DNA of 32,003 nucleotides from a virus. The number at the start of each line of letters is the position of its first letter. Within the stretch, counting starts at the first letter, position 1. This document shows positions 1,543 to 30,822 of the stretch, in pieces. Location: the IMG/VR virus record IMGVR_UViG_3300025098_000174, positions 1-32,003 of that record; one strand, written 5' to 3'. The notes under the pieces were generated by a model. That model ran no database searches and was not told the origin of the DNA. It saw only the letters and a program-made list of their open reading frames with translations. Both the position numbers and the translations under genes were made by a program.

Positions 1543-1998
1543 ATGGCGAAGAGTAAGAAGCTACCTAAATATATAACTATCGGACCATTTTCGGTGGAAT
1601 TAATATGTGCCCCCCATGATATCATGTATGAAGTAAGTGAGGCACAAGGTACATTCGTACAGAAACCGCCGTATAAAATCTATCTTGATAAGGAAATGAT
1701 TGAACGCGGTGGTGCTGATGCTGTGAATGTAGTGATACATGAGTGTATGCACGTTGCGTACTATCAGTATCAACTTAAAGATAAAGAAGAAGAGACAGTA
1801 GTTAATTCCTTTGGAAACTTTATGACAGAATTACTCTGTCGTTCTGAACTCAAAGAATGGCTACGCGAAAACATGAAGGGAGAGAATGGTAAAACAAAAA
1901 AGATTAGTGTTCGTGTACGGAACTCTCAAAAAGGGAGAAAGACTCAACGGGCTAATGGCAAAACAAAAAAGAATCGGCAAAGCAATAACCGTAGATAG
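1543..1998 (+). CDS. Putative zinc metallopeptidase (HExxH)
   Basis: The 151-residue protein contains HECMH at residues 66-70 in a hydrophobic helix (VVIHECMHVAYY), the signature of a zincin active site. A later helix, EEETVVNSFGNFMTELL, carries Glu residues that could supply the third ligand. Small phage proteins of this shape are common in marine phages, but the substrate is unknown. The start is placed at ATG 1543 rather than 1528 because the -10 box of the promoter covers 1532-1537. The last ~37 residues are Lys/Arg-rich and overlap the next gene by 113 bases in another frame, so this tail may have little constraint of its own. The frame carries one copy of the GGGGGCAC element (1607-1615, reverse orientation). 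Confidence 0.7.
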   Translation: MAKSKKLPKYITIGPFSVELICAPHDIMYEVSEAQGTFVQKPPYKIYLDKEMIERGGADAVNVVIHECMHVAYYQYQLKDKEEETVVNSFGNFMTELLCRSELKEWLRENMKGENGKTKKISVRVRNSQKGRKTQRANGKTKKNRQSNNRR

Positions 1999-2317
1999 TA
2001 ATTATACTATCAAAGATTTCTTGCACAGTTATCCAATAACATTTAGACACTACGATAACAAGGTGTGTAAATACAGAATCAAAGGCGAGCTGTATCATGT
2101 TAAAGATGATAACGTTTACGCAGCCGTGTGTGATATGGAACTCAATGCAGGATATACACTTGTAAATACGCTAGTGGAACTAGAGGATGGCACAGAGCAT
2201 GTGGCAGAAATGTTTTTAGTAGAAGAAACACCAGCGAAAATTACAGGTAAAGAAGTTCTCTCTGATTTCAGAGTGACAACAATAAAGAACATAAAAGAAT
2301 GGAGTGGCAGAGATTGA
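1886..2317 (+). CDS. Gamma-glutamylcyclotransferase-like (AIG2/YtfP fold) protein
   Basis: The 143-residue protein starts KRLVFVYGTLKKGERLNGL, with the YGTLxxG motif at residues 11-17 that marks the GGCT/AIG2 fold. It continues with an IGKA strand and a GELYHV strand, as expected for the small barrel. Members include gamma-glutamyl-amine cyclotransferases and phage proteins of unproven activity. The catalytic glutamate could not be placed with certainty. ATG 1886 has a strong ribosome site (AAGGGAGAG). It overlaps the metallopeptidase frame by 113 bases, so both cannot be freely evolving there. A near-identical 19-base stretch recurs at its codons 1-6 and 24-29 (MVKQKR, MAKQKR). Confidence 0.65.
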   Translation: MVKQKRLVFVYGTLKKGERLNGLMAKQKRIGKAITVDSNYTIKDFLHSYPITFRHYDNKVCKYRIKGELYHVKDDNVYAAVCDMELNAGYTLVNTLVELEDGTEHVAEMFLVEETPAKITGKEVLSDFRVTTIKNIKEWSGRD

Positions 2318-2433
2318 ATCTAATTATCTTGGAAGATATATGTAATAGAATAACAGGTGCAATGATGTGGGTATCTACATACGGAGTATTTATTCTGTTA
2401 GCTATAGGTGTTGTATTAAATATAATAGGATAG
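2299..2433 (+). CDS. 44-residue single-span membrane protein
   Basis: The frame runs from ATG 2299 to TAG 2431-2433 and overlaps the end of the previous gene. Residues about 23-44 form one hydrophobic segment (MWVSTYGVFILLAIGVVLNI) preceded by a charged amphipathic N-terminal part. It is therefore probably a small inner-membrane protein with its N terminus in the cytoplasm. The ribosome site is weak (AAAAGA). A shorter version from ATG 2362 or 2365 would keep only the membrane span. Function unknown. Confidence 0.45.
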   Translation: MEWQRLNLIILEDICNRITGAMMWVSTYGVFILLAIGVVLNIIG

Positions 2434-2441
2434 GAGTAAGC

Positions 2442-3215: not shown

Positions 3216-3224
3216 GGAGATAAG

Positions 3225-3704: not shown

Positions 3705-4664
3705 ATGAGTGAGAACGAATTACCAAGAATTAGAAAGTTTGTATGGGATGAAAACAATCAGCCCATCCAAAAGATATGGGACACTTCAAGCCTAAGTTCT
3801 TTCTTAGCTTGCCCTAGATATTACAAGCTGTCTGTGTTAGACGGTTGGAAATCTACAAGCTACTCAAGTGCTACAGGATTTGGTTCCGCAGTACACCATG
3901 GCTTAGAAGAACTAGACAAAGCGAGGCACGAGGGGTTAACTAAAAGTGAATCTACAAAACGTGCGGTAGCTATGGTCTTGCGTGATTACGGTGAGGATTT
4001 AAAACTTGCTGATGAAAATGCAAGAGGTTTAGAGGCGGCGCTCCGAGCGGTTGTTTGGAAAGCAGAAGAGTTCTGGGATGATAAGCTAAAGCTAGCTACC
4101 ATGCCAGACGGATCGCCAGCACTAGAGCAAAGGTTTGAAGTACCCATTGGTGACCAAGGTCATAGGTTCAGCGGTCGAATAGATAAGATTGTTTCTATTG
4201 ATGACAGGCTGTACCTGGTTGACACCAAGACAACTAAGACTGCTTTGTCAGACTGGTATTTCAATGGCTATATGCCCAACAACCAAGTGTTCGCATACAT
4301 CTGGGCGTGTCGTGAAGTATTGAAGTTACCTGTGGATGGCTTCATCATTGATGCAGTGCAGACAGGCGCGAACTTCACAAGGTTTGCAAGACAAGTATAC
4401 ACTGTACCTAAAGAATTAATTGATGAGTGGTACAATGATACGTTGCATCATCTTAGTATATCAGATGTATATGCTAGCTCGCAATACTATCCCGCGAACT
4501 TTACATCATGTGGAAACTACGGCGGTTGCAGATATAGAGAAGCATGTGCTCATGCGAAATCACAAAGGGGAATGTTCTTTGGTAATGACTTTCACCAAGA
4601 GTATCACCCAGATTTAGAAGAAACAAAACCACAAGAACTTGAAGTTATCAAGGGTGGTAAATAA
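3705..4664 (+). CDS. PD-(D/E)XK exonuclease, RecB/Cas4-like, with iron-sulfur cysteines
   Basis: The 319-residue protein shows the RecB-family nuclease layout. An early SxLxxFLACPRYYK motif (Cys36) is followed by a GxxVHHGLE helix. The catalytic block is FSGRIDKI followed by LYLVDTKTTK, giving the D-(D/E)xK residues. At the C terminus are three cysteines at 269, 275 and 281 (C-x5-C-x5-C). One early Cys plus three late ones is the 4Fe-4S arrangement of Cas4 and AddB nucleases. It probably resects DNA ends for recombination with the Sak4-like ATPase and SSB candidate that follow. The start at 3705 has an AAGGAGAC ribosome site. A promoter lies just after its stop, so the next genes may also be transcribed independently. 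Confidence 0.85.
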   Translation: MSENELPRIRKFVWDENNQPIQKIWDTSSLSSFLACPRYYKLSVLDGWKSTSYSSATGFGSAVHHGLEELDKARHEGLTKSESTKRAVAMVLRDYGEDLKLADENARGLEAALRAVVWKAEEFWDDKLKLATMPDGSPALEQRFEVPIGDQGHRFSGRIDKIVSIDDRLYLVDTKTTKTALSDWYFNGYMPNNQVFAYIWACREVLKLPVDGFIIDAVQTGANFTRFARQVYTVPKELIDEWYNDTLHHLSISDVYASSQYYPANFTSCGNYGGCRYREACAHAKSQRGMFFGNDFHQEYHPDLEETKPQELEVIKGGK

Positions 4665-4722: not shown

Positions 4723-5526
4723 ATGGCAAACATAAGTAAACATAAATCAACAAGTGTTACCAAGCTATTACTCTGCGGAGATAGTGGTAGTGGTAAGACA
4801 TCTGCTCTAGCGAGTTTAGCTAACGCAGGTAAAAAATTACGTATACTAGACTATGATGACGGACTTGATATCTTGCCCGAGTTTTTAAAACCCGAGGCAG
4901 TACAGAACGTTTCATATGTTACGTTAAGAGATTCACTAGGACAGGCGGACTCGTTTAGACGAGGGGCACGTTTGTTATCCCATTGGAAAGATGGCGATGA
5001 AGACTTAGGTCCTGTGAAAGAGTGGGGAGACGATACAGTTTTAGTAATTGATTCCCTCACACTGTTAGGCGAAGCTGCTTTGAGAGCGGCTCTTGTCTTT
5101 AACAATAAGAAACCAACAGAGCAAGCCAGCCAACCCGAGTGGGGAGCGGCGGCGCGTGATGTCCAGAACATTATACAATATATCACAGGCAATGAAGTGA
5201 AATGTAATGTAGTGGTAACCACGCACATGCAGTATATGGAAGGCGATTTGGGTGTGTCAAAAGCATATCCAACATCTGTCGGTTCGAAGTTATCTACTAA
5301 GATAGGTAGGTACTTTAACTGTGTATGCAGAATAGATACTCGTTCATCTAGTAAAGGAACAGAGCGCACGTTACGTACAATGTCAGATCATAGAATGGAT
5401 CTGAAAGTTACCGCGCCGTCTTTAATAGAGCCGAACATTGAACTTAACTTGCAAAAGTTATTTGATTCTATTCAAAGTAATGCGCAGTCTAAACTCAAAG
5501 AGAGCAATACGAAAGGAGATAAATAA
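4723..5526 (+). CDS. Sak4-like RecA-fold ATPase (AAA_24)
   Basis: The 267-residue protein carries Walker A GDSGSGKT at residues 19-26, a DYDDG segment at about residue 42, and Walker B VLVIDS with Asp110. A VVVTTHM sensor-like strand follows. This is the phage Sak4/AAA_24 pattern, a single-domain RecA relative that promotes strand annealing with a phage SSB. The SSB candidate is indeed the next gene, overlapping by TAATG (5524-5528), and a RecB-like nuclease precedes it, so a recombination module is well supported by context. It is transcribed from the consensus promoter just upstream. A single-mismatch relative of the repeated element, AGGGGCAC, lies at 4972-4979. Confidence 0.8.
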   Translation: MANISKHKSTSVTKLLLCGDSGSGKTSALASLANAGKKLRILDYDDGLDILPEFLKPEAVQNVSYVTLRDSLGQADSFRRGARLLSHWKDGDEDLGPVKEWGDDTVLVIDSLTLLGEAALRAALVFNNKKPTEQASQPEWGAAARDVQNIIQYITGNEVKCNVVVTTHMQYMEGDLGVSKAYPTSVGSKLSTKIGRYFNCVCRIDTRSSSKGTERTLRTMSDHRMDLKVTAPSLIEPNIELNLQKLFDSIQSNAQSKLKESNTKGDK

Positions 5527-5963
5527 TGTCGAATGTTGCTGACTTTTTAAACATGACACCCAATGACACGCCAGAATCTGTCGTGCTACCAGAGGGTAGT
5601 TATGAGTTCTCTATAACTTCTTATAGAGCGGATGAAGTGGGTCAAAATAATACCCCCCTCATCAAAGTAAACGTTAAGGCGATTGGAGTGATCGACTCAG
5701 ATTTAACTGACGAGAAACTCAAGGACGCACAGCCAACTCGTATGGAGTTCTGGGCTACACCTAACGCCTTGAAAGTAAACAATCCTGCAACAGGATTGAA
5801 GTCGTTTCTAACCAACGGGTTAGACATGGGTCATGTGGAAGACCTGCCTTACAGTGAATTGCTAGAGATGGCAATTGGCAAAACCTTCAAGGGCTTAATC
5901 AAGCACGAGATGGTGGGGCAGAATAAAGATATTCTACAACCAACAGTAAAGAGAATACTCTAA
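5526..5963 (+). CDS. Putative single-stranded DNA-binding protein
   Basis: The 145-residue protein follows the Sak4-like gene with a one-base TAATG overlap. The segment LPEGSYEFSITSYRADEV, then a beta-rich middle (PLIKVNVKAIGV) and TRMEFWATP, resembles the DUF669-type/OB-fold phage proteins that accompany recombinases. No aromatic binding residues can be proved from sequence alone. Position between the ATPase and the DNA polymerase genes supports an SSB role. An alternative is an unrelated recombination accessory protein. Confidence 0.55.
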   Translation: MSNVADFLNMTPNDTPESVVLPEGSYEFSITSYRADEVGQNNTPLIKVNVKAIGVIDSDLTDEKLKDAQPTRMEFWATPNALKVNNPATGLKSFLTNGLDMGHVEDLPYSELLEMAIGKTFKGLIKHEMVGQNKDILQPTVKRIL

Positions 5964-7577: not shown

Positions 7578-9137
7578 ATGGCAAAAATAATAAAGAACGT
7601 AGATATACAAAATATCGAGCTAGATTCTGAGCAAACACTCTGGACTTACTGCGCCCTTGACTGTGCGGTAACGCTAGAGATTTGGCAGAAGATCAAGAAA
7701 GAACTAGACGATACTACAACCAAGACATATCAGTTTGAACTAGACAGCCTCAAGCCTGCGATGGCTATGATGCAGAAGGGTTTACGCGTTGACTTAGAGA
7801 AAGTTAGGAACATGCGTGCCCCCTTGAAAAAAGCGCGTTTGAAATTAGAGAGAATGTTGAATCTCTTTTCACAAGCGGCAACAGGTAAAGACTTAAACCA
7901 CGCCTCACCAAAACAATTACAGGATTTATTTTATGTACACTTAGGTATACCTAAGATCATGTCATATAAAAAAGGTAAGTCAAAAGTTTCAACAGATCGT
8001 GAGGCTCTTGAAAAACTAAGAGAGAACTACCCACGAGCAAAAGTATTTGCCAACGCTATCCTTGCGTTGCGCGATATCGACAAACAACTTGGTGTGCTTG
8101 ATACAGATAGAGACAAAGATAATCGTATTCGTTGTTCTTATAATGTGGCAGGTACAGAGACAGGTCGTTGGTCATCTTCAGAAGCCCCTTGGGGTACAGG
8201 AACTAATCTTCAAAACATAACGAAAGACTTGCGCGAAATATTTATACCCGATGAAGGTATGACTATGTTCTACGCAGACTTAGAGCAAGCGGAATCCCGT
8301 GTGGTTGCCTACTTAACAGACGACCAAGGATATATTGATGCTTGTGAGAGTGGTGACTTGCATACCACTGTGGTTAAAATGGTCTGGAAAAACATGGGTT
8401 GGAGTGGCGATCCTAAACAAGAGAGACAGCTAGCCGAGAATCCTTATTACTTACAGTTTAGTTTTAGGGATATGTGTAAGCGCGCAGGTCATGGTACTAA
8501 CTATGGTTTGTCAGCCGCGTCTTTGGCTAGACATCTGAAGATTAAAGTAGCACATGCTACACGATTCCAATTACTTTATTATGGTGGAGTGGTCAGTCTT
8601 GATTCTGTCAATCGCTGGCATCAACAAGATCCTAAAGCTGGTTTTGATGAGCTTCTAGCATATGGTAAAGTATATGGTGAAAAGACTCAGTATGTTGATG
8701 TGCCTGGCGCGTTCCCTGGAATACGTAAATGGCATGACAGTATAGCAAATGAGTTGTTAAATACTGGGACACTAACTACTCCTATTGGTAGACGCAGACA
8801 ATTCTGGGGCAGGCTGGATGATGCCACTACATTACGTGGTGCTATTGCTTACGTACCTCAATCTACTATTGGTGATTTATTGAACATGGGATTATATCGA
8901 GTGTGGAATGAGTTATGTGATGATGGTGTTCAAGTATTGGGACAAGTACACGACGCGATTTTAGGACAGGTTCCTACTGAAAAGGTAGATGAGCTGATGC
9001 CTAAGATCGTTGAGTGTATGACTAATCCTATTCAAGTAGGTACTAGAACACTGGTGATACCTTCCTCTGTAGAGGTGGGTAACACATGGAAGAATATGAA
9101 AACATGGGAAAGGGGGCACGATGGCGCGAATATATAA
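7578..9137 (+). CDS. DNA polymerase I, C-terminal gene: end of exonuclease plus family A polymerase
   Basis: The 519-residue protein begins with the ExoIII motif that completes the upstream exonuclease (Tyr24, Asp28 in YCALD), followed by the thumb. The palm/fingers carry motif A (FYADLEQAESRV, Asp234), motif B (RDMCKRAGHGTNYG, Arg297, Lys301, Tyr309) and motif C (VHDA, Asp459). All catalytic polymerase residues are therefore present. Aligned to T7 and E. coli Pol I, the residue equivalent to Tyr526/Phe762 is His305. Motif C reads HDA rather than HDE. ATG 7578 follows AGGAGAC. The last 17 bases overlap the next gene, and the repeated element at 9112-9119 lies in this end. A second element is at 7816-7823. 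Confidence 0.9.
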   Translation: MAKIIKNVDIQNIELDSEQTLWTYCALDCAVTLEIWQKIKKELDDTTTKTYQFELDSLKPAMAMMQKGLRVDLEKVRNMRAPLKKARLKLERMLNLFSQAATGKDLNHASPKQLQDLFYVHLGIPKIMSYKKGKSKVSTDREALEKLRENYPRAKVFANAILALRDIDKQLGVLDTDRDKDNRIRCSYNVAGTETGRWSSSEAPWGTGTNLQNITKDLREIFIPDEGMTMFYADLEQAESRVVAYLTDDQGYIDACESGDLHTTVVKMVWKNMGWSGDPKQERQLAENPYYLQFSFRDMCKRAGHGTNYGLSAASLARHLKIKVAHATRFQLLYYGGVVSLDSVNRWHQQDPKAGFDELLAYGKVYGEKTQYVDVPGAFPGIRKWHDSIANELLNTGTLTTPIGRRRQFWGRLDDATTLRGAIAYVPQSTIGDLLNMGLYRVWNELCDDGVQVLGQVHDAILGQVPTEKVDELMPKIVECMTNPIQVGTRTLVIPSSVEVGNTWKNMKTWERGHDGANI

Positions 9138-10429: not shown

Positions 10430-12187
10430 ATGAAAATAAATATAGACTACTCTCGCGATGAACTCTTGACAGAGTCTGGCAAAATAATACTAAAAGACAG
10501 ATACTTACTACCTACTGAGGCTAGTCCTCAAGACGGCTTTGCCAGAGCAGCAAAAACATTTGCGGATGATCAAGCACACGCACAAAGATTATATGACTAC
10601 GCTAGTAAGTTATGGTTTATGTTTTCCACACCTGTTCTATCCAACGGAGGTACAACACGAGGGCTACCTATATCTTGCTTCTTAAATTATGTAGATGATT
10701 CACGTGAAGGTTTAGCAGATCACTATACTGAGAACATATGGTTGTCTAGTATGGGCGGCGGTATTGGTGGCTACTGGGGTGATGTTAGATCACAGGGTAT
10801 GGCTACAAGTATTGGTAATAAAACTACAGGAGTTATTCCTTTCATGCACGTGGTCGATTCACAGATGACTGCCTTTCATCAAGGCGCAACACGCCGTGGT
10901 AGCTACGCTTCCTACATGGATGTATCACACCCAGAGATTGTAGAGTTTATTGAAATGAGAAAACCTACAGGCGGAGATATCCATAGAAAAAATTTAAACT
11001 TACACCACGGTATCAATGTATCAGATGCTTTCATGGAGGCTGTACAAAAAGGCGAGGCTTGGGATTTAATTGATCCCCATACTAAACAAGTTATTAAAAC
11101 TCTTGATGCTAGAACTTTATGGATTAAGATTCTAGAAACAAGGATAGCTACAGGCGAGCCATATATCTCATTCATTGACACAGTGAATGCAGCACTGCCA
11201 GAATCACAGAAGAAACTGGGATTAAAATTTAATCACTCAAACTTATGTTCTGAGATTACACTACCAACTGCAAAAGATAGAACTGCGGTGTGTTGTTTAT
11301 CCTCAGTGAACTTAGAATACTTTGATGAGTGGAAAGATAATAAATTATTCATAGAAGATTTGGTGCGTATGCTTGACAATGTTTTAGAGCATTTCATTAC
11401 AAGTGCCCCCTCTTACATGTGGCGTGCAGTTAACTCAGCGCGTTGTGAAAGAGCCATTGGCTTGGGTACAATGGGGTTACATAGTTACTTTCAGAAGAGA
11501 GAAGTAGCAATGGATGATGATATGTCTAAAGATATCAATGACTATATATTTAAGCATATAAACAAAGAGGCTCAATCTGCTAATCAAAAGCTGGGAGCAG
11601 AGAGGGGTTCTCCCGCAGACATGGAGGGCACAGGGCTAAGACATTCACATGTCATTGCCATTGCTCCTAATGCTTCTTCATCTGTAATTTGTGGGGGAAC
11701 TTCTCCATCTATCGAACCGCTACGCGCAAATGCGTTTTCTCAAAAGACTTTGAGCGGTACATTCCTTATGAAAAATAAATACTTAGAGAGAGTATTATTA
11801 AAGCATGATAGAAACAATAAAGAAGTTTGGAAATCTATTGTGACTAATGGGGGTAGTGTACAGCACTTAGAGTTCTTATCAGAACAAGAGAAATCTATAT
11901 TTAAAACAGCTATCGAGATGGACCAGAGGTTGCTAGTTGATCTAGCGGCAGACAGACAACAATACATCTGTCAATCACAAAGTTTAAACTTGTTCTTACC
12001 GCCAGACGTGGACACCAAAACATTACATGGTATTCACTTGAGGGCGTGGAAAGGTAAAGTAAAAACACTTTACTACATGAGAAGCCAAGCTTTAAAGAAA
12101 GTAGAAAATCTATCTAACCAGATAGAAAGAACTATAAGACAAGACTATCAACAAGAAGAAGCCGCATGCGTGGCTTGCGAAGCATAA
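10430..12187 (+). CDS. nrdA: Ribonucleotide reductase class I large subunit NrdA
   Basis: The 585-residue protein has the redox Cys83 (PISCFLNYV), the radical-site cysteine Cys273 in NLCSEITLP, and its redox partner Cys289 (CCLSSVNL). It also has an IAPNASSS loop and a C-terminal C-x-x-C pair (Cys580, Cys583) for reduction by thioredoxin or glutaredoxin. It reduces ribonucleoside diphosphates together with NrdB, the next gene. At 585 residues against about 760 in E. coli it lacks the N-terminal ATP cone, so allosteric activity control by dATP is probably absent. ATG 10430 has an AAAGGAG ribosome site; the frame extends to 10355 but without one. A CTCGAGAAA motif lies at 10395-10403. The repeated element is at 11403-11410. 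Confidence 0.93.
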   Translation: MKINIDYSRDELLTESGKIILKDRYLLPTEASPQDGFARAAKTFADDQAHAQRLYDYASKLWFMFSTPVLSNGGTTRGLPISCFLNYVDDSREGLADHYTENIWLSSMGGGIGGYWGDVRSQGMATSIGNKTTGVIPFMHVVDSQMTAFHQGATRRGSYASYMDVSHPEIVEFIEMRKPTGGDIHRKNLNLHHGINVSDAFMEAVQKGEAWDLIDPHTKQVIKTLDARTLWIKILETRIATGEPYISFIDTVNAALPESQKKLGLKFNHSNLCSEITLPTAKDRTAVCCLSSVNLEYFDEWKDNKLFIEDLVRMLDNVLEHFITSAPSYMWRAVNSARCERAIGLGTMGLHSYFQKREVAMDDDMSKDINDYIFKHINKEAQSANQKLGAERGSPADMEGTGLRHSHVIAIAPNASSSVICGGTSPSIEPLRANAFSQKTLSGTFLMKNKYLERVLLKHDRNNKEVWKSIVTNGGSVQHLEFLSEQEKSIFKTAIEMDQRLLVDLAADRQQYICQSQSLNLFLPPDVDTKTLHGIHLRAWKGKVKTLYYMRSQALKKVENLSNQIERTIRQDYQQEEAACVACEA

Positions 12188-12196: not shown

Positions 12197-13162
12197 ATGT
12201 CAGTATTTAACGGAAGAGAGTACTATAAACCATTTGAATATCCATGGGCGTTTGAAGCCTATGACCAACAACAAAAGATGCACTGGTTACCCAGTGAAGT
12301 TCCATTGCATGAAGATGTAAATGATTGGAACTCTAAGATGAATGATGCAGAAAAGAATCTAGTGAAACAGATTTTAACGTTCTTTACCCAAGGTGACGTA
12401 GACATTGCACAAGCCTATATGGATGTGTATATACCCATGTTCAAGAAACCAGAAGTGCGTATGATGTTATCCGCTATTGCTACGTCGGAGGCTAACCATG
12501 CGCATAGTTATTCACTGCTGAATGATACTATTGGTATGGATGACAGAGAGTATAAAGCATTCCAAGAGTACGCAGAGATGGCAGACAAACATAACTATCT
12601 TTGGGAAAATAAAGGGGGCACGGAAGAAGAGAAGATCGTTCGTGACATGGCAGTGTTCTCTGCATTCGGTGAAGGCTTGCAATTGTTTGGTTCATTTATT
12701 ATGCTACTAAACTTTCAGCGCTTCGGTAAGATGAAAGGTATGGGGCAAATTGTAGCGTGGTCTATCAGAGATGAGAATCACCACGTTGAAAACATGATTA
12801 AACTTTTACATACTGTATTAGATGAGAAGCCACACATCTGGAATGATCAATTTAAAAAGTCACTGTATGATATATGTAGAGACATGGTAACTTTGGAAGA
12901 AAAGTTTATTGATCTAGCATTTGAGCAGGGTCCAGTCGAAGGCTTAACTCCTCAAGAAGTTAAGAACTATGTACATTATATGGCGGACAGAAGATTACTT
13001 CAGCTAGGCTTGAAGCCTAACTACGGAGTAAAGTCAAACCCATTGGAATGGGTAGACTATATTGTCAACGGACAGGCACACGAAAACTTCTTCGAAACTA
13101 GAGCTACTGAATACGCAAAGGGCGCAGTTCAAGGAGATTGGGGTGATGCATTTTCCTCTTGA
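12197..13162 (+). CDS. nrdB: Ribonucleotide reductase class I small subunit NrdB
   Basis: The 321-residue protein retains the ferritin-like metal ligands Asp67, Glu98 and His101 (SEANHAHSYS), Glu159 (GEGLQ), and Glu193 with His196 (DENHH). Tyr105 lies four residues after His101, at the position of the E. coli radical Tyr122, so a tyrosyl-radical enzyme is indicated. The spacing of the ligands matches class Ia proteins (31 residues from Asp67 to Glu98 and 34 from Glu159 to Glu193). It lies nine bases after nrdA with an AAGGAG ribosome site. Its stop overlaps the -35 box of a promoter at 13159. The repeated element is at 12614-12621, coding KGGT. Confidence 0.94.
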   Translation: MSVFNGREYYKPFEYPWAFEAYDQQQKMHWLPSEVPLHEDVNDWNSKMNDAEKNLVKQILTFFTQGDVDIAQAYMDVYIPMFKKPEVRMMLSAIATSEANHAHSYSLLNDTIGMDDREYKAFQEYAEMADKHNYLWENKGGTEEEKIVRDMAVFSAFGEGLQLFGSFIMLLNFQRFGKMKGMGQIVAWSIRDENHHVENMIKLLHTVLDEKPHIWNDQFKKSLYDICRDMVTLEEKFIDLAFEQGPVEGLTPQEVKNYVHYMADRRLLQLGLKPNYGVKSNPLEWVDYIVNGQAHENFFETRATEYAKGAVQGDWGDAFSS

Positions 13163-13187: not shown

Positions 13188-13193
13188 TACTAT

Positions 13194-13325: not shown

Positions 13326-13338
13326 TTACAGGAGCAAA

Positions 13339-20900: not shown

Positions 20901-23900
20901 TTTTGATCACGTGAACTTACAGCACTAAATAGCTTTTCAAACACAGGATATTTTTTAGCCCATACTCTGGCGTGGGAAAATATACGCGCAGGTGTGCCAA
21001 TACTTTCAGGTGAGGCTGTATTTGTTTCATCTGCTCGTGATTCTCTAGCAATGTCATTTTCCATTTGTCGAGTAGAGGATCTTAAACTTTGGCGTGTGCC
21101 TGGTATATACTTATCTATCTCTGGGGAAGATGGTTCATCAATATATTCTTGGCTGTAGTTGTATCCTGGTTGCGATTCTGGTATGTCAGTAATAGCAACA
21201 AATGGAGTTCGTCTTTGTTTAATTTTTGTTGAAGGGCTACGTTTCTCTAAACTTTGTTGGGTGTTATTCGCTATAGTATTATTTAATACTAAACGTTTAC
21301 GCTCTTGCATTCTTCTTTTAAATTCTCCGTTATCAATTGCATCGAATAATTGAGCAGGATTTGTATAACCTGTTTTAAATAGTGCTCTTGATAAGCCTAA
21401 GAAGAAAGCTTTTAATCTTTCAAATACTTTCGCCAGCCTACCTTTTGGAACATACTTCTTGTTAATATAAGCACCAAATGCTGCAGTAATACCTTCTTCT
21501 ATAATTATGTCTTCAGTCATGCCAGGCAAACCACTATAGTTTTTTCTAACATTAAAAGCATCTACCCAATGTTTCTTAGAAAATTCTTTTAACATGTTAA
21601 GCTCTTTGTCTGTAAACAAACCACTTCTAAACATGGCGTGCATTGCTTCATGTCTAAGTGTTACCATCAAACTATTCAATCTGCTCTCGTATGATAGATT
21701 ATCATACTTCTTACCTAGCACTTCTATGACTTGAGGATTCTGAAAATCCATAGCTTCTGTTGCAACATCGTAAGTGCCAATAAATTTGCCTAGTCTAGTT
21801 CTAGAGTTATCTAACCACCTATTGAGGATAGCCAGGTTGACATAGTCTAATCCCATATTATCTAACTCAGCACGCATCGCTAGATAAATACGCATTAAAT
21901 CCTTCTCAGCTTCTTTTGTAAACTGAGCTTTCTCTTCCTGTGTTTCTAGATAACCAACAACACCCAAGTCATTAATACTGTTTACTAATTGATCTGGGTT
22001 GTAGTCATCATCTCTTTTAAATATTCTACCAAGTTTTACTTCACCATTATTATATACAAAACCACCAATATCTAAATCTAGATTAGTTAACATTTCTGGA
22101 TTACCGTCCATATTATCTATAACCAAATCTTGAGTCTCGATACCTGCTTCTTGAATAATTCCTACAAAATCTCCGTAGTCTCTTCTGCCTTTATACCCTG
22201 GTATAGTTGTATCATAAAATAAAGCTTTTAAATTTTCGTCACGTATTTCTATCTGAATTGGTATGGGTTTGTCTGGATTTAATCTGCTAGCATATACTGC
22301 TCGATGTCTTCCTTCGTGCCCTGTAACACTTAGGATTGGATTACCCGCATCTGTGTAACGTAACTTTAATCTTAAATACGGTGGAGTAATACCATTTTGG
22401 GCACCCTTACCATATTGTTCTTGTAATTGATTTTGACGCTCTATGCTTGTGTCAGCCCCACTAGTGGCTAATCGTAAAAATACACTAGGCTTGAGATATA
22501 AAAACGCAGACTTACCCCCATCCAGCGTGCCCCCTGGGATTGAGCCAGATCCTGTATTCCAGAATGTATGCCCTACAGTTCCCCAGTAAGTTTTATTTTG
22601 TAATGCTTTAATCTTGTTGTCATTAATTTCTCGGCGTAATTCACCTTGTGCTCTAGTAGTAGAATCATCTACAGAATAAACTTCTATAGGTTTGATAATT
22701 GGTTTCTCTTTTGTTCCTTGATAAAGCGCGCGAATTTTGCCTTTGTTTGGGAAAGACTTTTGTGTTATTCTGTTTAGCTGTTGCCTTGTTAAAGGTTTAT
22801 AACCGAAAGAAGTATACAACACATTAAAGTTTTTTAAGTCTCCTTCTGCTCTATTAATCAAAGCTTGGAATCTATTTATTTCTGCAGCTCTATCTTCTTC
22901 TGTAATTCCTTTTCTTTTACGCAATCCTTCAATCGCTTTTTTGTAACCTTCAATTGCCGCGGGTGTGTGGTTTTCTTGCCCAATTCTATTAGCAAGTATT
23001 TGCATATCATAATACCTGTCTCGCGCTTCTTGTTGCATCACATCGCCAGATGCCTCATTTAAAACATCTCTGTAGCTAAGTAGCTCTTGCCTTTTCTCTT
23101 CCGTTAGTTTAGGATTTCTAAGCTGTTCGCTTACTTTAGATATTTCTTTAGCTAATTTCTCATCTGCTTGATTAACAATTTCTTCCTGAGGGACGGGGGG
23201 CACGGCGGGTGTAGTTCCGACTTGCTCTCTAATAGGTGAGGTACGCGGTTTATTTTCTACCTTGTTGTTTATTATTTCTTCTAAGATTTCACGTCCAGCA
23301 GTTTTGCCAGTCTTTTTATTTACAGATGTATTCTCTTGTATTTCTTTTAATGTTGCTGGAGTATAAATAGCACGTGGTCCACCACGTGGAACTTCTAAAG
23401 AAAATTCACCTTCTATCTCTTGTAAGTAACCAAGCTGACCTAGCTGTTGTATTTCTTCTGGTGTTAAATAATTGGAACCACTTTCTACTTCATGTGATAA
23501 AGCCCTTGGTCCTTGCGCTTCAATTAATTCCATTTGCGAATCTGTATATCCTCTACCTCTTAAGATGTTCATGAGCTTTTCTCTTTTCTTATCAGTTAGA
23601 GGTTTTACATTTATCTTTTCATAATCTTCTCTCTTATCAAATACAGGGGTTTGTTCAACCTCACCTGTTTGGGGATCAACAGTATCTGCTTTCTTATCTT
23701 CTGTCGGCTTTTTTATTATATTTAAACTATCTAATACACTTATATCTGTTTCAACGAAAGTATTTTTAGCACCAGGTGTTAAGTCTTTTAGAAAAACTTT
23801 CCTTTGACCACCCCGATCGTACGTTCCTATTACTTGGAATTGAGGTGTAACAATATTACCATCCTCATCTACTATATCATTGTCATCAATATCTTTACTA

Positions 23901-25195
23901 GAACTTATACCTGTAACAGTATAGGTATTGTTTGTATAATCTTCACCTAACTTGTCTATTACAACAGGGTCTTTATCATCATTAGTTCTGTTGTCTTGAT
24001 AAGCTTTAGAATCTTTAGCATCAATATTTTTAATATCACTTATTTGATAACTTTTTACAATACCACCAGTAATACCAAATGGTCCACCACCCGCAGCACC
24101 AGCACCTGCTGATTCACCAACTCTTTTATAAAAATCTTTGTCAGTGTACAAGTCGGATAAAGATGCAATTATTTCTTGGTCAGTGTCAAGAGCTTTTTCA
24201 ATTACTCCAGCAGATTCTACAAGAGCTTCCTGTGTTCCTTCAGCCAATGATTCGCCTGCTATTGACTTACCTGTTTCTTTGCCAATGGTTTTGGATGTAG
24301 ACTGTTTTAATAATTTATCTATGCCTTTGCGCGTAGCTTCTTTACCAAACTTTTGATAAAGCATTCTTTGTAATATACTACCAGCACCTAATAAATATTC
24401 AGTTGCCGCGTATGGTACACCAATAGCTAAAGATAATCCTGCGTTTGCTTTTTCAAAATCTGTAGCTTCTAGCTGTGCTATTCTGGAATCACCCACACCC
24501 ATACCGTAAGCCATACCTACGCCAAGTGCAGGGTTAACCATACTAGCAGCGAAGATGGGTATAGTAGTGACAAGACCTTGCCCAACATTGAATCCTAGCC
24601 AATCAAAGAAATGCGCGGCTCTATCCTCTTCAGTTAATATCTTTTCAATAGATGCTTCAAAAGGAATAACTTCACCATCTTTGGTTTTGATAAACTGATC
24701 TGCCATCCCTTGTATTTGATATCTTTGGATAGCATCATTGGTGGCTTTCTCTAAGTCTTCCATGCCTAAAACATCAGCCACAGTTCCGAGTGCCCCCGCT
24801 CCTATCTGTTTAAGACCAGCCCATCCACCTTTCAAACCTTTTGTAAATGCAGTATCATCTAAGTCGTTGGGGTTGTCATAGCGTTCAGCTCCAATACCAA
24901 ACTTATATATGTAACCTTGGTTAAATAAGTTTTGCTCTAGTTTAGGATTTTTTAAGTACGCTTGTACTTCTTCTTTTGTAGCGTCTTTAGGAACTGCCAT
25001 GCGAGGACCATTCGGGTCATCAGATAATAATATATATTTTAAATTTTCGGGAGATGAATCAGCCATTTGTTTTAGCTGTTCACTTGTAGGTTTAGGAGGA
25101 GCGGCGATTCCTTGTGAAGCTATGGCAGAACTTTTAGCTAGTATATTAGCTATGTTGGAATCACTTATAGGTTTATATGTTACTTCTTCTGCCAT
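17933..25195 (-). CDS. Giant 2420-residue polyvalent virion protein, probably ejected into the host
   Basis: The protein combines several parts. Hydrophobic segments lie near residues 195-270 (VTTIPIFAASMVNPALGVGM). A GHEGRHR motif has His960. A metallopeptidase-like helix LRHEAMHAMF has HEAMH at 1182-1186. Long charged coiled regions follow, and a C-terminal membrane-like domain at about 2060-2125 includes SAFFLFQTYISQMFSLM. This last part fits LPD38-type large polyvalent-protein domains. Such proteins sit inside the capsid or tail of podovirus-like particles, are ejected with the DNA and may form a trans-envelope conduit or modify the host. The length exceeds T7 gp16 (about 1300) by far. 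No clear ribosome site precedes ATG 25195; two hairpins do. Four copies of the repeated element lie inside (20290, 22527, 23196, 24790). Confidence 0.8.
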   Translation of the reverse strand: MAEEVTYKPISDSNIANILAKSSAIASQGIAAPPKPTSEQLKQMADSSPENLKYILLSDDPNGPRMAVPKDATKEEVQAYLKNPKLEQNLFNQGYIYKFGIGAERYDNPNDLDDTAFTKGLKGGWAGLKQIGAGALGTVADVLGMEDLEKATNDAIQRYQIQGMADQFIKTKDGEVIPFEASIEKILTEEDRAAHFFDWLGFNVGQGLVTTIPIFAASMVNPALGVGMAYGMGVGDSRIAQLEATDFEKANAGLSLAIGVPYAATEYLLGAGSILQRMLYQKFGKEATRKGIDKLLKQSTSKTIGKETGKSIAGESLAEGTQEALVESAGVIEKALDTDQEIIASLSDLYTDKDFYKRVGESAGAGAAGGGPFGITGGIVKSYQISDIKNIDAKDSKAYQDNRTNDDKDPVVIDKLGEDYTNNTYTVTGISSSKDIDDNDIVDEDGNIVTPQFQVIGTYDRGGQRKVFLKDLTPGAKNTFVETDISVLDSLNIIKKPTEDKKADTVDPQTGEVEQTPVFDKREDYEKINVKPLTDKKREKLMNILRGRGYTDSQMELIEAQGPRALSHEVESGSNYLTPEEIQQLGQLGYLQEIEGEFSLEVPRGGPRAIYTPATLKEIQENTSVNKKTGKTAGREILEEIINNKVENKPRTSPIREQVGTTPAVPPVPQEEIVNQADEKLAKEISKVSEQLRNPKLTEEKRQELLSYRDVLNEASGDVMQQEARDRYYDMQILANRIGQENHTPAAIEGYKKAIEGLRKRKGITEEDRAAEINRFQALINRAEGDLKNFNVLYTSFGYKPLTRQQLNRITQKSFPNKGKIRALYQGTKEKPIIKPIEVYSVDDSTTRAQGELRREINDNKIKALQNKTYWGTVGHTFWNTGSGSIPGGTLDGGKSAFLYLKPSVFLRLATSGADTSIERQNQLQEQYGKGAQNGITPPYLRLKLRYTDAGNPILSVTGHEGRHRAVYASRLNPDKPIPIQIEIRDENLKALFYDTTIPGYKGRRDYGDFVGIIQEAGIETQDLVIDNMDGNPEMLTNLDLDIGGFVYNNGEVKLGRIFKRDDDYNPDQLVNSINDLGVVGYLETQEEKAQFTKEAEKDLMRIYLAMRAELDNMGLDYVNLAILNRWLDNSRTRLGKFIGTYDVATEAMDFQNPQVIEVLGKKYDNLSYESRLNSLMVTLRHEAMHAMFRSGLFTDKELNMLKEFSKKHWVDAFNVRKNYSGLPGMTEDIIIEEGITAAFGAYINKKYVPKGRLAKVFERLKAFFLGLSRALFKTGYTNPAQLFDAIDNGEFKRRMQERKRLVLNNTIANNTQQSLEKRSPSTKIKQRRTPFVAITDIPESQPGYNYSQEYIDEPSSPEIDKYIPGTRQSLRSSTRQMENDIARESRADETNTASPESIGTPARIFSHARVWAKKYPVFEKLFSAVSSRDQKSRELQSQFVATLSKKFMKVMRNPEYAKLINKALEISQQVKGRYRMNENGQIIFRAERNGDGGDSTVKAGEVVVLEGDLAEAYENVQEAVQMMHKEIVRGLLANDSATDLLSNTIQTLITLNAIDVDAKTFLNNTKSITELTENDYENLSYTDILQLTNAVKDFKEAVGDNAEILINLQLTAKEGQGVIARLNTLLGQADKEGAPGTGLLALTSELRKYNDFTKTDYVPLQRYGSHYIVVKDKDGKTVDYRMFDKVRFGVVKQDEEKEVREALQNKYGGNPDVTISGTKPVTINDLRRDVQADLNTIDAAAQFLSDTNKEKYNEIRKEIETTLNKGTDITNGVVQGYSAFIQPRKQSGGIPGYSTDFARGLTQYGLASSNFAAGNRFNKTIADAYRGTQDPKQADVSLRDASSKWYKYVMDPKQELAQIRRLGFWYYLGGNISSAFLQLMSIVQFSGPILSTISGQKQSAAVELVKAFNDVRKMLVFNGRKFEDVFLNFDKLPEDVREDAMADIYNGTIKQGMAAHEAGMPVGGGTVSQNQIRQRALRTFENTVIGGVFNTFETIARLTAYIASHRMMQKPDAMESAVNFFNTDADFRGNVNRNGGVATPRIVAQQVLEETFGVYGKLNRPQYMRGWGSAFFLFQTYISQMFSLMTRMLLRQGTPAQKAAGRKALAKMLVMIMITGGFFGMPGMDDALWVKDLLTRLVTGIDRDSRSEFRNMLAEVSGPKVAEFFENGIINTLANVDVQRRLSFGAVPGSGQMRAVLSMMGLNTGARAEEFLGAPGAIFFQNARNILQAYEATGEFPAKELAYAVTPTFLTNLLKANDIAEDGRVESRYGTVLTEDATLYDAFLQGIGFSPTKITKERELLRLERLNSGRNSQVQSRMNRKVTTAYRKIFLGMIKKDFESQLEGQEDLKELLIELYAYNSRQDWTNQLNVDVQRLAMEAMKDLSKEYRVLKGGSTNIQQNLKDAEGLGVEYDFPSPNPQ

Positions 25196-26269: not shown

Positions 26270-27147
26270 TATCCTAACGGCTGCCAACCTAAATTAGCCG
26301 CCACTCCTAATCCTTGCACACCTAAACCCATCGCCTGTGAAAAGAAACTAGGCTGTTGGACTGGTGTCCCAGTGTATGTTCTTGTTTCACCTGTCGGAAC
26401 TCCTCTTAAAATATCAGAGTAGAATCCTAATTGTTGTTTTGGGTAATCTCTTTCCTGTACAAATGTAGAGTAACCCAAGTCTAAAGCCTGTTGTTCCATC
26501 TGTCTTTGTAGCCCGCCAATGCCCATAGACTGTTGGAAATCTGATTGTCTTGCTGCTTGACCTGCCTGACCAGTACTTGCCATACCTAAAGCAGATTGTA
26601 ATTGTTGTTGTCTTTCTTGTTGTGCCGCACCTAGTGCAGTTTGAAAAGCTTGTTGTTGGGCTTGCGCATAGATATCACCAATCCCTTGTTGTAAATTTTT
26701 TTGACGCTCAGCTTCTAGTACAGCTTGTCGCGACCCACCGAATGCACCTGCTTGCGCAGACTGAGCTGCGATACCTTGCTGCTCAATGGCAGATTGTTTT
26801 CGCGCTTCTCTTGCTGCGATATCCGCAACATTAGTCATGTATGGGTTCATGTATCTTTGGAGATCGGCTTGACCAATCGGTGCCCCCGCTGCTGTTGCAG
26901 CAGTATAAGCTTGCCCCACCTGTGTACCCGCGATACCTGTCTGTGATTGGGCTCTGGCTATTGCGTCTTTTTCTGCTTGCGACATAGCCGCAAGTCTTGG
27001 ACCTGTGTAAGGTATAAAACCTTCTTTGGCTACATCACCTGCTACTCCCGTTAAGGATTTAGCAGCTTTCTCCATATACTCTGGAAGTTCTACTGAGGTT
27101 GTTGAAGTTTGTTGTGCTTCTTTAGTTCCGAATAAAAAATCTAACAT
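26269..27147 (-). CDS. Ala/Gln-rich putative DNA-transfer (internal virion) protein
   Basis: The 292-residue product is rich in Ala, Gln and Gly, with long helices (SAIEQQGIAAQSAQAG; GIGDIYAQAQQQAFQTALGA), a conserved-looking RYMNPYMTNV segment at about residue 98 and GAFGGSRQAVLEAER. The composition matches the small injected proteins of P22-like and marine podoviruses (P22 gp7/gp20 style), which coat or guide DNA during ejection. The assignment rests on composition and location, not on a proven domain. ATG 27147 overlaps the upstream stop as TAATG. The repeated element is at 26880-26887, coding GAP. Confidence 0.6.
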   Translation of the reverse strand: MLDFLFGTKEAQQTSTTSVELPEYMEKAAKSLTGVAGDVAKEGFIPYTGPRLAAMSQAEKDAIARAQSQTGIAGTQVGQAYTAATAAGAPIGQADLQRYMNPYMTNVADIAAREARKQSAIEQQGIAAQSAQAGAFGGSRQAVLEAERQKNLQQGIGDIYAQAQQQAFQTALGAAQQERQQQLQSALGMASTGQAGQAARQSDFQQSMGIGGLQRQMEQQALDLGYSTFVQERDYPKQQLGFYSDILRGVPTGETRTYTGTPVQQPSFFSQAMGLGVQGLGVAANLGWQPLG

Positions 27148-28367
27148 TATGAATCATCCCTTCTTTTTACAGCAGCATCAAGGTCTTCTAAAATATTTTT
27201 TCTATCAGGATCAGAACTATAATATCTACTCATAATATCTTCAAGAGATAAAGGTACTTGTACCTTTCTTCTATAACCAAAGAATGGATACTCTTCTTCT
27301 GATTCATCTTCATCATCTGTATCTGTATCATCTTCTCCAGTTGAGTCAGCAGTTCCAGCATCTTTGCTCATACGTTGTTTTTCTTCTTGAGCTTTCATTG
27401 CATCGTAAGCTTTTAATTTTTCATCGAAAGTCATCTCATCCCCTGGGAATAATTTATTTAGTAAACCCATTAAGCCAAAATTAGAAAAGAAGTCACCAAT
27501 CTTAGAAGCTCCCCCACCTAAACCAAACTTTAATCTCTTACCTTCTTCTGTATCATAGTCACCAAAAATACCTTCTTTTCTAAGATCATTATCAGCACTT
27601 CCTAAATAATAGTTTCCTGTAGTTAAAGGATCTCCATACTTCATTGCTCTATTTAACATTTTATTATAGTCACTGCTAAAGAAAGTTTTATTTGCTTGTC
27701 CTTTTAAAGCAGACAGTCCGCGTAGTGCATCTTGTCCTATATTACCCCCTGCCGCACCTTGAGCTTGTTTAGCTGCTCCTGCAACATATGCATTTATCAA
27801 TGCTTGTTGTGCATAATTGTTATCTATATTTTTGTCATCTTTAAATTCATCTTTTCCAATACCTCCAGCAACCATAGGAATATATGGTTTATTACCTGTG
27901 TCTTTTGAAGAACTTGGTGGCGGTGGTGGTGTATCTTTTGATCGCTTATTCATAGCATCCCTTAAACCTTGTGAAATCCTGGGTGATTTAGATATAGGTT
28001 TATCGGGCTTACCTCCTCTGTATTGCGAAACATAGTATGATGGTATACCTGTGACAGGTTGTGGTTCGCCTGCGCCACCTAATAATTTTAATATACCTTC
28101 TTCTTGTGGGTTAACGTAAGCTAGTCGTTCACCCTCTGGCGCCATCGCATTAACCGTACGCGCCGCTGATCGAATCTCGTTTTGAACATTGTCTAGTGCC
28201 ATGTTGTAATAATTAGGGACTGGCTGTTGTGCTCCAGGAAGTTCATAAATTCCCTGTGCCCCCTTCCTGTTCTGTTTTGATAAGAGTGCAGTAATACCTG
28301 GCGAAACTTCGTTCGCTCGTACGACCATATCTCCTTGTTGTACTGGACCTGCGTATCCTTGCATCAT
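27147..28367 (-). CDS. Putative virion structural protein, 406 residues
   Basis: The frame opens with two consecutive ATG codons (28367, 28364). Residues 1-40 include QGDMVVRANEVSPGITALLS, a form seen in phage proteins upstream of ejection genes. The middle is Gly/Pro/Ser-rich, a very acidic stretch lies near residues 335-360 (GEDDTDTDDEDESEEEY), and an Arg/Lys/Asp-rich helix closes the protein. It is probably a tail or internal protein, and no fold is recognised. A promoter with an exact TATAAT lies directly upstream, and the predicted transcription start coincides with the second ATG. The repeated element at 28256 lies inside and another at 28400 lies upstream. Confidence 0.55.
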   Translation of the reverse strand: MMQGYAGPVQQGDMVVRANEVSPGITALLSKQNRKGAQGIYELPGAQQPVPNYYNMALDNVQNEIRSAARTVNAMAPEGERLAYVNPQEEGILKLLGGAGEPQPVTGIPSYYVSQYRGGKPDKPISKSPRISQGLRDAMNKRSKDTPPPPPSSSKDTGNKPYIPMVAGGIGKDEFKDDKNIDNNYAQQALINAYVAGAAKQAQGAAGGNIGQDALRGLSALKGQANKTFFSSDYNKMLNRAMKYGDPLTTGNYYLGSADNDLRKEGIFGDYDTEEGKRLKFGLGGGASKIGDFFSNFGLMGLLNKLFPGDEMTFDEKLKAYDAMKAQEEKQRMSKDAGTADSTGEDDTDTDDEDESEEEYPFFGYRRKVQVPLSLEDIMSRYYSSDPDRKNILEDLDAAVKRRDDS

Positions 28368-28399: not shown

Positions 28400-28415
28400 G
28401 GGGGCACGGTGAAAA

Positions 28416-28757
28416 TTATATCGGATTTTTTGTATCACTTCTGACCTCCAAGAATGAAACCAAACCACTGAGCTTGTTAGCTGTATCTGCTTGTAGTTTT
28501 AAAATGTCACCTTGCTCAAGGACAAGCGTGCCATCAATAACATTTAAAGAATCTTTACTGTCTAATACATGGTGAGCTATATCATAATCGGTACCACTCT
28601 TGTTAACAAAAACATTTAGTCCTATATTGCCTGATGTGGTGTGATTGGTAGTTTGTATCGTTTTAACAATAGTTTCTGTTTCGGTTGGGCATGTGTATAT
28701 TGTAGTTAAAGTTGTTGCGGTTAAAGTAAAACCTACTGACTTGTATAATGTTGACAT
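28416..28757 (-). CDS. Small beta-rich virion protein
   Basis: The 113-residue protein is Thr-rich and beta-like (VGFTLTATTLTTIYTCPTET at the start), with VIDGTLVLEQGDILKLQADT near residue 75 and a VSFLEVRSD end. Similar small beta-sandwich proteins, with the final LeqGD.lklqA block, are found among decoration and tail proteins of marine phages. A good ribosome site (AGGAGAT) precedes ATG 28757. It lies between tail-type genes, supporting a structural role. The exact position in the particle is unknown. Confidence 0.6.
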   Translation of the reverse strand: MSTLYKSVGFTLTATTLTTIYTCPTETETIVKTIQTTNHTTSGNIGLNVFVNKSGTDYDIAHHVLDSKDSLNVIDGTLVLEQGDILKLQADTANKLSGLVSFLEVRSDTKNPI

Positions 28758-28954
28758 TAATTATGATCTCCTAAAAACCAAGCCATTGCTCTAATCTCTG
28801 TTTGGTCTGCTATCTTTACTGGCGGATTCTCTTCTGAGTAATCCCTTAGTTTTAAAACCTGTATTAATGCGTCATATGTTCTGACATCAATCTTTCCTTC
28901 TGTTCTTTCTTTGTATGAAGGTTCTGGGTATGCGGGTCTGCTGTATAATGCCAT
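28757..28954 (-). CDS. 65-residue hypothetical virion-region protein
   Basis: ATG 28954 overlaps the stop of the large upstream gene as TAATG, indicating coupled translation. The product begins ALYSRPAYPEPSYKERTEGK, has one helix (VRTYDALIQVLKLR), and ends with RAMAWFLGDHN. No family is known. Its place between two structural genes suggests a tail or connector accessory protein. Confidence 0.55.
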   Translation of the reverse strand: MALYSRPAYPEPSYKERTEGKIDVRTYDALIQVLKLRDYSEENPPVKIADQTEIRAMAWFLGDHN

Positions 28955-30804
28955 TACCTTAATCCATCCTGTCTACCGTCCGCACGCCACGTGCCTAATC
29001 TCCATGACACTCCTGTTGTATCAGATTCATACCTGGCTTGGAAGGATCTACCTCTAGCGCGAAAATCTAACTCAGGGTCAGTTGCGTTAATAGTAAATGG
29101 TCCTTTAGTTATCAAGGCATCTTGCGGGTATATTTTACTATTTAATGTAAACTTCATGGCTGTACCATTTTTAAATGTAATGTCAGGAATCACCCTATCT
29201 AAGAAATAAACATTGTCGCCATTCTGATCACCATTAAAGAAACCTGTTTCCACAAAAGCAGTGATCGCACTGCCTGCTGCATCTACCCCATCTTCTTGGT
29301 TATATTGAATACCAGAAGAATCAATCGCTAAAGGATTGGAATAGATATTAGAATCTGCCCAAGCTGTTCTGCCTAAATCTCCAATAGACCAAGTCTTGTC
29401 AATGTAATTATAGATGACATACTTATCTACATCTAAAGAACCTTGCGATGGATAGAACCACCATAGCTCGTTAAACTTAATGTTTTGTCCGCAGAAAACT
29501 TTCTCACGCTGAACTTGGTTAAAGTTATTAAAGATGTGTGTCAATACGGGACATTCTAAAGTACGCACAGCACCATCATACATGTAGAAGTTATCCACAC
29601 CCATCCAGAATGAAGCACCTTCTATTGTGGTTGCCGCGTTCTTGGATATAGTACCAGAGATTTCTCCTAACACTGAGAATGAGAATGTAAATGGTGGACC
29701 AATAAACTGCATAGAATACACATCTACATCTGTCCATAAGAATATTTGACCACGCCCTTTTTCAACAGCCTCAATGTTTGTACCTGTACCTAGTCTTTGT
29801 TCACCTGCTGTATTGACTAACTGAGGTGTCCATGTTTGAAAATCTTCTTGATTACAAAAGCGCACTGTCATTCGATCATAGTCTGATGAACCCACAGGAT
29901 TACAACCAAATGCAATTAGGTGTCTATCAGGAGTAGATACCATAACTTGCCCGACCTTTGATGGAATCTGTGAAGCATCACCGCTTAAAGTATTTGTGAC
30001 ATAGTAAGCTAGTGTTGTCCCACGAAAAGTAGTAGGAGATGCAATAAAAGCGCTGATATCAAAATAATAAATAGTATCTTCGCCGCCACCTACAGATGCA
30101 ACAATGTCCTCACCCCATGCATCCATTGACCAAACTCTTGGTGACAAAACAATACCTGATGTACTTCTTGCTGTACCCCAAGAGGATTGTCCCCATAAAC
30201 CTACACCATAACCATAACCTGTTAGACCATCAGAAGGACCGTTGTTTACTAAGTAACGTAATGTAACTGAACCTCCGCCTGTTACTCCTCCAGATGCTGC
30301 TGCTCCTGTGCCTGTAATTTTGTAAGTGTTAGCACTTAAATAAGTTGCTACGTATTCTCCCGCTGCAATTGTAATACCATCTAAGGTAACTGCCGTGTCA
30401 ATAACCACACGAGAACCTGGGTCAGTGTTTGCTAAACCATGGGAAACGTGAGTGACTGTTACTTCATTAGTGCCTGCTGCTCCCGTTGTATAGGGATTAG
30501 TTAGTGTTGCTGAATCTGTTCTATACGGCGTGACATCATATACTACACCAGAGTACTCAATGTAAACATGGGTTGATGTTCCCATGAGAATCATCTTGGT
30601 TCCGTTGAGATCGCGATGAGGTAGAATGTTTCGGCATGCGCCACTGATTTGTGCGGAGCTAAACCTCTTAGTCCAGCCACCTATCTTCTCTGCATACCCT
30701 TGAAAGAAGCGCACCTTGTCCGCGTTAGTATAACGCATTTGCGCTTGGTAATCTGTGATGTCTGTGATAACCCCTGGAGGCGCTGTTAATTTTACGAATG
30801 GCAT
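28954..30804 (-). CDS. Tail hub/gatekeeper-like structural protein (P22 gp10-like candidate)
   Basis: The 616-residue protein opens PFVKLTAPPGVITDITDYQA and has repeated beta segments across its length with Trp-Gly turns (WGQSSWGTA; VWSMDAWGEDIVASVGG). A D-R-H-L-I-A-F-G block and a FLWTDVDVYSMQFIGPPFTF strand pair also occur. This resembles the beta-propeller packaged-DNA stabilisation proteins (P22 gp10) that plug the portal, but the similarity is of pattern rather than alignment. A tail tubular protein is the alternative. The repeated element (30811-30818) lies between its ATG and the previous stop, and supplies the purine-rich ribosome site AAGGGGG. Confidence 0.6.
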   Translation of the reverse strand: MPFVKLTAPPGVITDITDYQAQMRYTNADKVRFFQGYAEKIGGWTKRFSSAQISGACRNILPHRDLNGTKMILMGTSTHVYIEYSGVVYDVTPYRTDSATLTNPYTTGAAGTNEVTVTHVSHGLANTDPGSRVVIDTAVTLDGITIAAGEYVATYLSANTYKITGTGAAASGGVTGGGSVTLRYLVNNGPSDGLTGYGYGVGLWGQSSWGTARSTSGIVLSPRVWSMDAWGEDIVASVGGGEDTIYYFDISAFIASPTTFRGTTLAYYVTNTLSGDASQIPSKVGQVMVSTPDRHLIAFGCNPVGSSDYDRMTVRFCNQEDFQTWTPQLVNTAGEQRLGTGTNIEAVEKGRGQIFLWTDVDVYSMQFIGPPFTFSFSVLGEISGTISKNAATTIEGASFWMGVDNFYMYDGAVRTLECPVLTHIFNNFNQVQREKVFCGQNIKFNELWWFYPSQGSLDVDKYVIYNYIDKTWSIGDLGRTAWADSNIYSNPLAIDSSGIQYNQEDGVDAAGSAITAFVETGFFNGDQNGDNVYFLDRVIPDITFKNGTAMKFTLNSKIYPQDALITKGPFTINATDPELDFRARGRSFQARYESDTTGVSWRLGTWRADGRQDGLR

Positions 30805-30822
30805 TTAGCCGTGCCCCCTTCC

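Follow-up and report, generated by a model that had tools for sequence, protein, structure and literature searches.

Few short words are known to us that organise a whole phage chromosome, and most of them lack an explanation; nor do we know of a function for the nicks of T5 and tf. The word considered here is the octamer GGGGGCAC, which recurs along a 32,003-nucleotide stretch of the IMG/VR virus record IMGVR_UViG_3300025098_000174 (hereafter the window), a 32-kb piece of an uncultured phage.

The closest described systems each resemble it in part. Chi of E. coli (GCTGGTGG) is, like GGGGGCAC, asymmetric, G-rich, about 8 bp long and present on both strands, and is scattered in genes regardless of frame with no need of near-cognates. 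Chi is in about 2.3-fold excess on the E. coli chromosome, and phages without a RecBCD inhibitor over-represent it, including the virulent T5 (PMC3784561). However, Chi sites match GGGGGCAC in form but not in strength: the enrichment here is about 90-fold as against about 2.5-fold, is confined to a phage clade, and is not seen at that level in sampled host chromosomes. The nick motifs of LUZ24-like (tf and Rembedalsseter, TACT/RTGMC), phiKMV-like and T5-like phages are also hard-edged, similar in length and copy number, mostly located in genes and variable between related phages; tf has 14 nicks within TACT/RTGMC, a hard-edged in-gene word with variants between relatives (PMC3517423, PMC11780129). 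The LUZ24-like motifs are comparable to GGGGGCAC in strength as well. Nick motifs of the tf, T5 and phiKMV types lie on one strand only (PMC3517423, PMC11780129), whereas GGGGGCAC lies on both. Stoperators of Cluster A mycobacteriophages are dispersed asymmetric sites, 20-30 per genome in the L5 type, whose motif drifts between relatives; unlike GGGGGCAC they are longer (13-14 bp), are oriented with transcription, and belong to temperate phages with a known repressor (PMC6550527).

Eighteen exact copies of GGGGGCAC were found in the window, seven on the plus strand and eleven on the minus strand, at the places given in an earlier note on this DNA. Dinucleotide-preserving shuffles of the window yielded a mean of 0.20 copies and a maximum of 1; the octamer stands about 90-fold above composition expectation, and the same word read backwards, used as the control, did not occur. 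Synonymous codon shuffling gave a mean of 0.33 and a maximum of 2, against 15 copies observed in genes. As both kinds of shuffle give far fewer copies, the excess is due neither to composition nor to codon usage; chance and composition were rejected as its source by the shuffles, a 3-mer model and the codon null. The claim of the earlier note that the copies are not a coding artefact therefore survived a codon-aware check, which predicted about 0.3 copies, far from 18. Within genes the three sense frames are all used, as are two of the antisense frames. Three copies fall outside genes (13213, 28400 and 30811), and the one at 9112 is at the end of the polymerase gene, adjoining the start of the next gene. 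One-mismatch forms numbered 7 against 5.2 expected, so near-cognates are not enriched in the window; the single-mismatch relative that had been reported near 4972 exists (AGGGGCAC), but at 4962+. The copies, all GGGGGCAC, are as follows.

1607..1614, minus strand: within gene 1528-1998, antisense
7816..7823, minus strand: DNA polymerase gene, antisense; most aligned relatives have it intact or as AGGGGCAC
9112..9119, plus strand: end of the polymerase gene, immediately 5' of the downstream gene's start codon at 9121
11403..11410, minus strand: NrdA, antisense; replaced by other sequence in most relatives
12614..12621, plus strand: NrdB
13213..13220, plus strand: flanked by a sigma70-like promoter and a terminator; conserved better than any other copy, and unchanged in all near relatives aligned there
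14298..14305, minus strand: ferredoxin-family gene, sense
16855..16862, minus strand: helix-turn-helix (HTH)-phosphoesterase gene, antisense; intact in all contigs aligned there
17049..17056, plus strand: HTH-phosphoesterase gene, sense
17608..17615, plus strand: HTH-phosphoesterase gene, sense
20290..20297, minus strand: gene of a 2420-aa protein
22527..22534, minus strand: 2420-aa gene
23196..23203, plus strand: 2420-aa gene, antisense
24790..24797, minus strand: 2420-aa gene
26880..26887, minus strand: ejection-protein-like gene
28256..28263, minus strand: gene 27147-28367
28400..28407, plus strand: intergenic
30811..30818, minus strand: intergenic, just upstream of the start codon of gene 28954-30804

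The enrichment is a property of one uncultured marine phage clade and not a quirk of a single contig. The DNA polymerases of this clade are about 61-100% identical to that of the window, and every sizeable contig in it is enriched. The contigs compared are genome fragments, and related genomes are non-independent samples. Among 80 contigs retrieved with NrdA, those at least 67% identical carry GGGGGCAC and the pelagiphage-like ones near 60-63% carry none. Eighteen contigs searched whole held 3 to 27 copies each and none of the backwards control; four pelagiphage-like records searched whole had no GGGGGCAC. In a polymerase search, sizeable contigs at least 63% identical to the window's polymerase were enriched in GGGGGCA(C), and the next known polymerase relatives, at 42% identity or less, were not. 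The density across the clade is about 0.5 copies per kb, or about 1 per 2,000 letters, and the strand counts in the largest contigs (16+/11-, 11+/13- and 7+/8-) stand beside 7+/11- in the window. On the polymerase tree a single origin at the base of the clade would account for the trait. Contigs added by a search with the HTH-phosphoesterase were also enriched, as were clade members without Nrd genes in the retrieved stretch; the latter indicate that the trait does not ride on the Nrd genes. A module-swap test with the HTH-phosphoesterase was uninformative, because the contigs retrieved with it belonged to the same clade wherever this was checkable.

When non-redundant copies were compared, the information was limited to 7-8 core bases and a weak 5' run of A. 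The first base is loosened to A in contigs G014 and G853 and the eighth to any base in G023, G024 and G852, while the middle bases are nearly fixed across subclades; the subclade forms are strict GGGGGCAC, RGGGGCAC and GGGGGCAN. The motif thus resembles a word that is recognised all or none and whose sequence drifts along with its reader. Coding-strand copies outnumber opposite-strand copies by about 3:1, where the codon null alone predicts roughly 4 to 11:1, and transcription direction shows no sign of relevance to motif strand. The use of both strands, with an orientation preference no greater than codon tolerance gives, speaks against an RNA signal, which the earlier note had kept as an option, and against a translation element.

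Purifying selection maintains the GGGGGCAC sites. In alignments at 72-78% identity the octamer was intact in 60% of comparisons and other 8-mers having seven or more G/C in 19%, and at 65-72% identity the values were 29% and 5%; retention of the octamer is three to six times that of other G+C-rich 8-mers. Both enrichment and conserved copy positions were found in related phages, and the comparison that the earlier note had proposed left its claim standing. In distant subclades most copies lie at differing positions, with each large contig still carrying about 12 to 31. Regions outside genes hold more copies than expected, by a factor of up to about four. Spacing between copies is somewhat more regular than chance would give (per-genome P 0.01 to 0.5, the genomes being related and not fully independent), and regular strand alternation along the genome was not significant per genome. 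Close pairs of motifs were more often divergent (minus then plus, 85-330 bp apart) than otherwise arranged, at about P 0.05 after correction by our own estimate; examples are 3284/3427, 14638/14831 and 37087/37235 in contig G001, with similar pairs in other contigs.

The copy at 13213 is placed between promoter and terminator in all near members, and likewise in far members, where the flanks are unrelated. The other clear sigma70-like promoters have no GGGGGCAC. A general promoter element was rejected, as one sigma70-like promoter alone among the clear ones carries the octamer, and a sigma54 -24 box was rejected by inspection, TTGC being absent at a fixed distance. The region 13159-13335 comprises a promoter (TTGACA-17-TATTAT), a leader and an intrinsic terminator 5' of a small open reading frame at 13340. 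The leader is strongly conserved in near relatives (GAACCTTAC...GTTTGGGGA...TTCCACA), has no Rfam match and may encode one or two overlapping micropeptides (MGGTKNL...); an Rfam scan of the window found no family reaching threshold.

Nearly the whole window is contained, in reverse direction and at 99.9% identity, in the IMG/VR contig G001 (51,851 bases), which has 27 copies of GGGGGCAC divided 16/11 by strand. The window encodes a PD-(D/E)XK nuclease, a Sak4-like protein, a split DNA polymerase, a DUF3987 helicase-like protein (9121-10377), NrdA and NrdB, together with a lysozyme, the HTH-phosphoesterase, the 2420-aa protein and virion proteins; the terminase, portal and capsid genes are located beyond it. 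Four of its genes are listed below.

3705..4664, plus strand: RecB/Cas4-type PD-(D/E)XK nuclease (PF12705, 1.5e-17; phrog_1218, 2e-23); candidate reader
4723..5526, plus strand: Sak4-like single-strand annealing ATPase (phrog_124, 8e-18; PF13479, 2e-14), adjoining the nuclease
5526..5963, plus strand: small conserved protein of the recombination block, by inspection possibly single-stranded-DNA-binding; no family match
16693..17931, plus strand: Fis-type helix-turn-helix plus calcineurin-like phosphoesterase; candidate reader

The nuclease translation contains cysteines that are potential ligands of an iron-sulphur cluster. In the structure model of the HTH-phosphoesterase, confidence is low outside the helix-turn-helix and part of the coiled coil. 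No clade member was found in the phage collection, where the top polymerase match was Caulobacter phage Kuura (36%). The replication block of Kuura is that of the nearest isolated relative (polymerase 36%, nuclease 26%, Sak4 28%), but Kuura is without GGGGGCAC and has its own, milder enrichment of GAGGGAC. In the whole Kuura genome (L125) that word occurs 33 times where 6.7 would be expected. On both of the convergent arms it runs mostly antisense to the genes, and its 23 antisense copies compare with 3.7 in a codon-shuffle null; it is a separate, strand-skewed word. The virion protein encoded at 28954-30804 shares 33-36% identity with its counterparts in Roseobacter phage CRP-901, pelagiphage HTVC027P and phage DSL-LC04, and about 25% with those in LUZ24-like phages such as tf.

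Several other genes were observed in passing. The gene at 5965-7050 appears by inspection to join a uracil-DNA-glycosylase-like N-terminal part to a 3'-5' exonuclease domain (with a phrog_17 match), and this fusion is separate from the polymerase gene at 7578-9137. The gene at 227-754 matches pyrimidine dimer DNA glycosylase (PF03013, 3.4e-07), a DenV-like repair enzyme. Glutamine-amidotransferase-like and amidoligase genes are found at 33.1-35.3 kb of G001 (L090 13085-15270) and an AIG2-like gene at 1886-2317 of the window; these genes, which are conserved in the clade and fast-diverging, resemble the amidoligase cluster of phage tf. The NrdA match in L041 (10001-11851) has three in-frame stops in plain translation, suggesting a frameshift or an assembly error.

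A host signal was sought in about 790 bacterial genomes (Alphaproteobacteria, other Pseudomonadota and Bacteroidota), among which the representation of marine lineages is uncertain, and none came near the phage's 500 copies per Mb. The densest genome had 158 per Mb, with 70 per Mb for its backwards control. A Chi-like two- to threefold excess would be invisible to this survey, but the lack of any phage-like density argues against a strong host chromosomal signal. An alignment search of GTDB genomes with the polymerase found nothing, and the host search with NrdA gave, apart from a few short contigs, only relatives of a generic alphaproteobacterial kind.

The copies are evenly dense, occur in both orientations, turn over in position, disregard genes and have a hard-edged G-rich core. 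Together these features point to a signal met by an enzyme moving along DNA and not to the regulation of particular genes. The suggestion in the earlier note of a binding site for a protein is partly supported, in that the data fit a site recognised by a protein; the candidate functions narrow to signals necessarily spread along the whole genome, though not to a single function. Our tentative preference, which falls short of being probable, is that GGGGGCAC is a Chi-like, strand-specific DNA-processing signal recurring along the whole chromosome in both orientations. A DNA end-processing or unwinding enzyme would meet the octamer on one strand, perhaps in single-stranded DNA, and would switch activity there, such that, for example, degradation stops and recombination or concatemer formation begins; the outcome may be recombination or end protection. 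The presence of a nuclease and Sak4 recombination block in the phage is consistent with this. The reader is more likely to be encoded by the phage than to be the host's RecBCD or AddAB, with the RecB/Cas4-type nuclease acting with Sak4, or the HTH-phosphoesterase, as candidates. A fully self-contained phage Chi system, in which the nuclease or another phage enzyme would read GGGGGCA(C) on one strand as a switch and the whole clade would have seeded its own genomes with the word in both orientations, is the more specific proposal and a rather unlikely one. Several points weigh against a Chi-like signal: Chi is only about 2.5-fold over-represented in lambdoid phages (PMC3784561), none of the sampled bacterial genomes reaches a density like the phage's (a modest excess being undetectable), no clear strand polarity runs along the genome, and the readers are candidates named from gene content alone.

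The octamer may instead be the host's own Chi, or another host signal, copied to survive RecBCD/AddAB with no reader in the phage. It has the form of Chi, and host Chi is enriched in virulent and temperate phages alike (PMC3784561), but the bacterial survey speaks against this, as does the lack of such a word in the pelagiphage-like contigs, CRP-901, HTVC027P and DSL-LC04, and we regard a host signal as improbable. A single-strand nick site is about as doubtful as a self-contained phage Chi system. The nick word of tf is comparable in its hard edges, location in genes, variants from relative to relative and copy number; the k-mer method used here recovers TACTGTGAC from tf; and the window phage and LUZ24-like phages are distantly related through the virion protein (25%), have convergent gene sets and both have amidoligase genes. 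The HTH-phosphoesterase would also be a plausible sequence-guided nuclease. However, known nick motifs are one-stranded whereas the strands of GGGGGCAC are about equal, and a 40%-identical phosphoesterase occurs in MW202713, which is without the motif. Nor do the ends of contigs hint at physical breaks at GGGGGCAC sites: 6 sites fall within 50 bp of the 228 ends, which is the background density.

Recognition by a phage double-stranded-DNA-binding protein acting genome-wide, either a stoperator-like repressor or an architectural protein, is less likely than nicking. The 15-27 copies in the largest contigs resemble the 20-30 stoperators, the motif drifts likewise, and in near and far members alike a sigma70-like promoter lies a short way upstream of the 13213 copy. 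Stoperators, however, follow transcription and are 13-14 bp long, whereas the orientation bias of GGGGGCAC does not exceed codon tolerance and its flanks hold little information; the other strong promoters lack the motif, and no repressor or integrase gene was found among the proteins scanned, which covered small open reading frames in part. It is also improbable, to the same degree as a host signal, that the octamer is the template site at which a primase starts lagging-strand primers, the G-run being copied into a C-rich primer. T7 primase starts at GGGTC. Sites would be required on both strands, the 2-3 kb spacing is Okazaki-like and more even than random, and far subclades are least strict at the 3'-terminal base. 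However, the primases known to us read three to five bases, not 7-8, and a primase would tolerate near-cognates; in G001 neighbouring copies on one strand lie up to about 10 kb apart, and no primase catalytic domain was recognised in the scanned proteins, where only the DUF3987 helicase-like protein came up.

The GGGGGCAC signal is strong, and a large marine clade of uncultured phages has it as a shared derived trait. Its sequence drifts from subclade to subclade, and unlike the known nick motifs it occupies both strands. The subclades with strict GGGGGCAC, RGGGGCAC and GGGGGCAN form a natural series for tracing the reader, and the octamer offers an exact, cheap test in native metagenomic DNA. 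A phage-encoded Chi system, if true, would be a recombination or end-protection code independent of the host.

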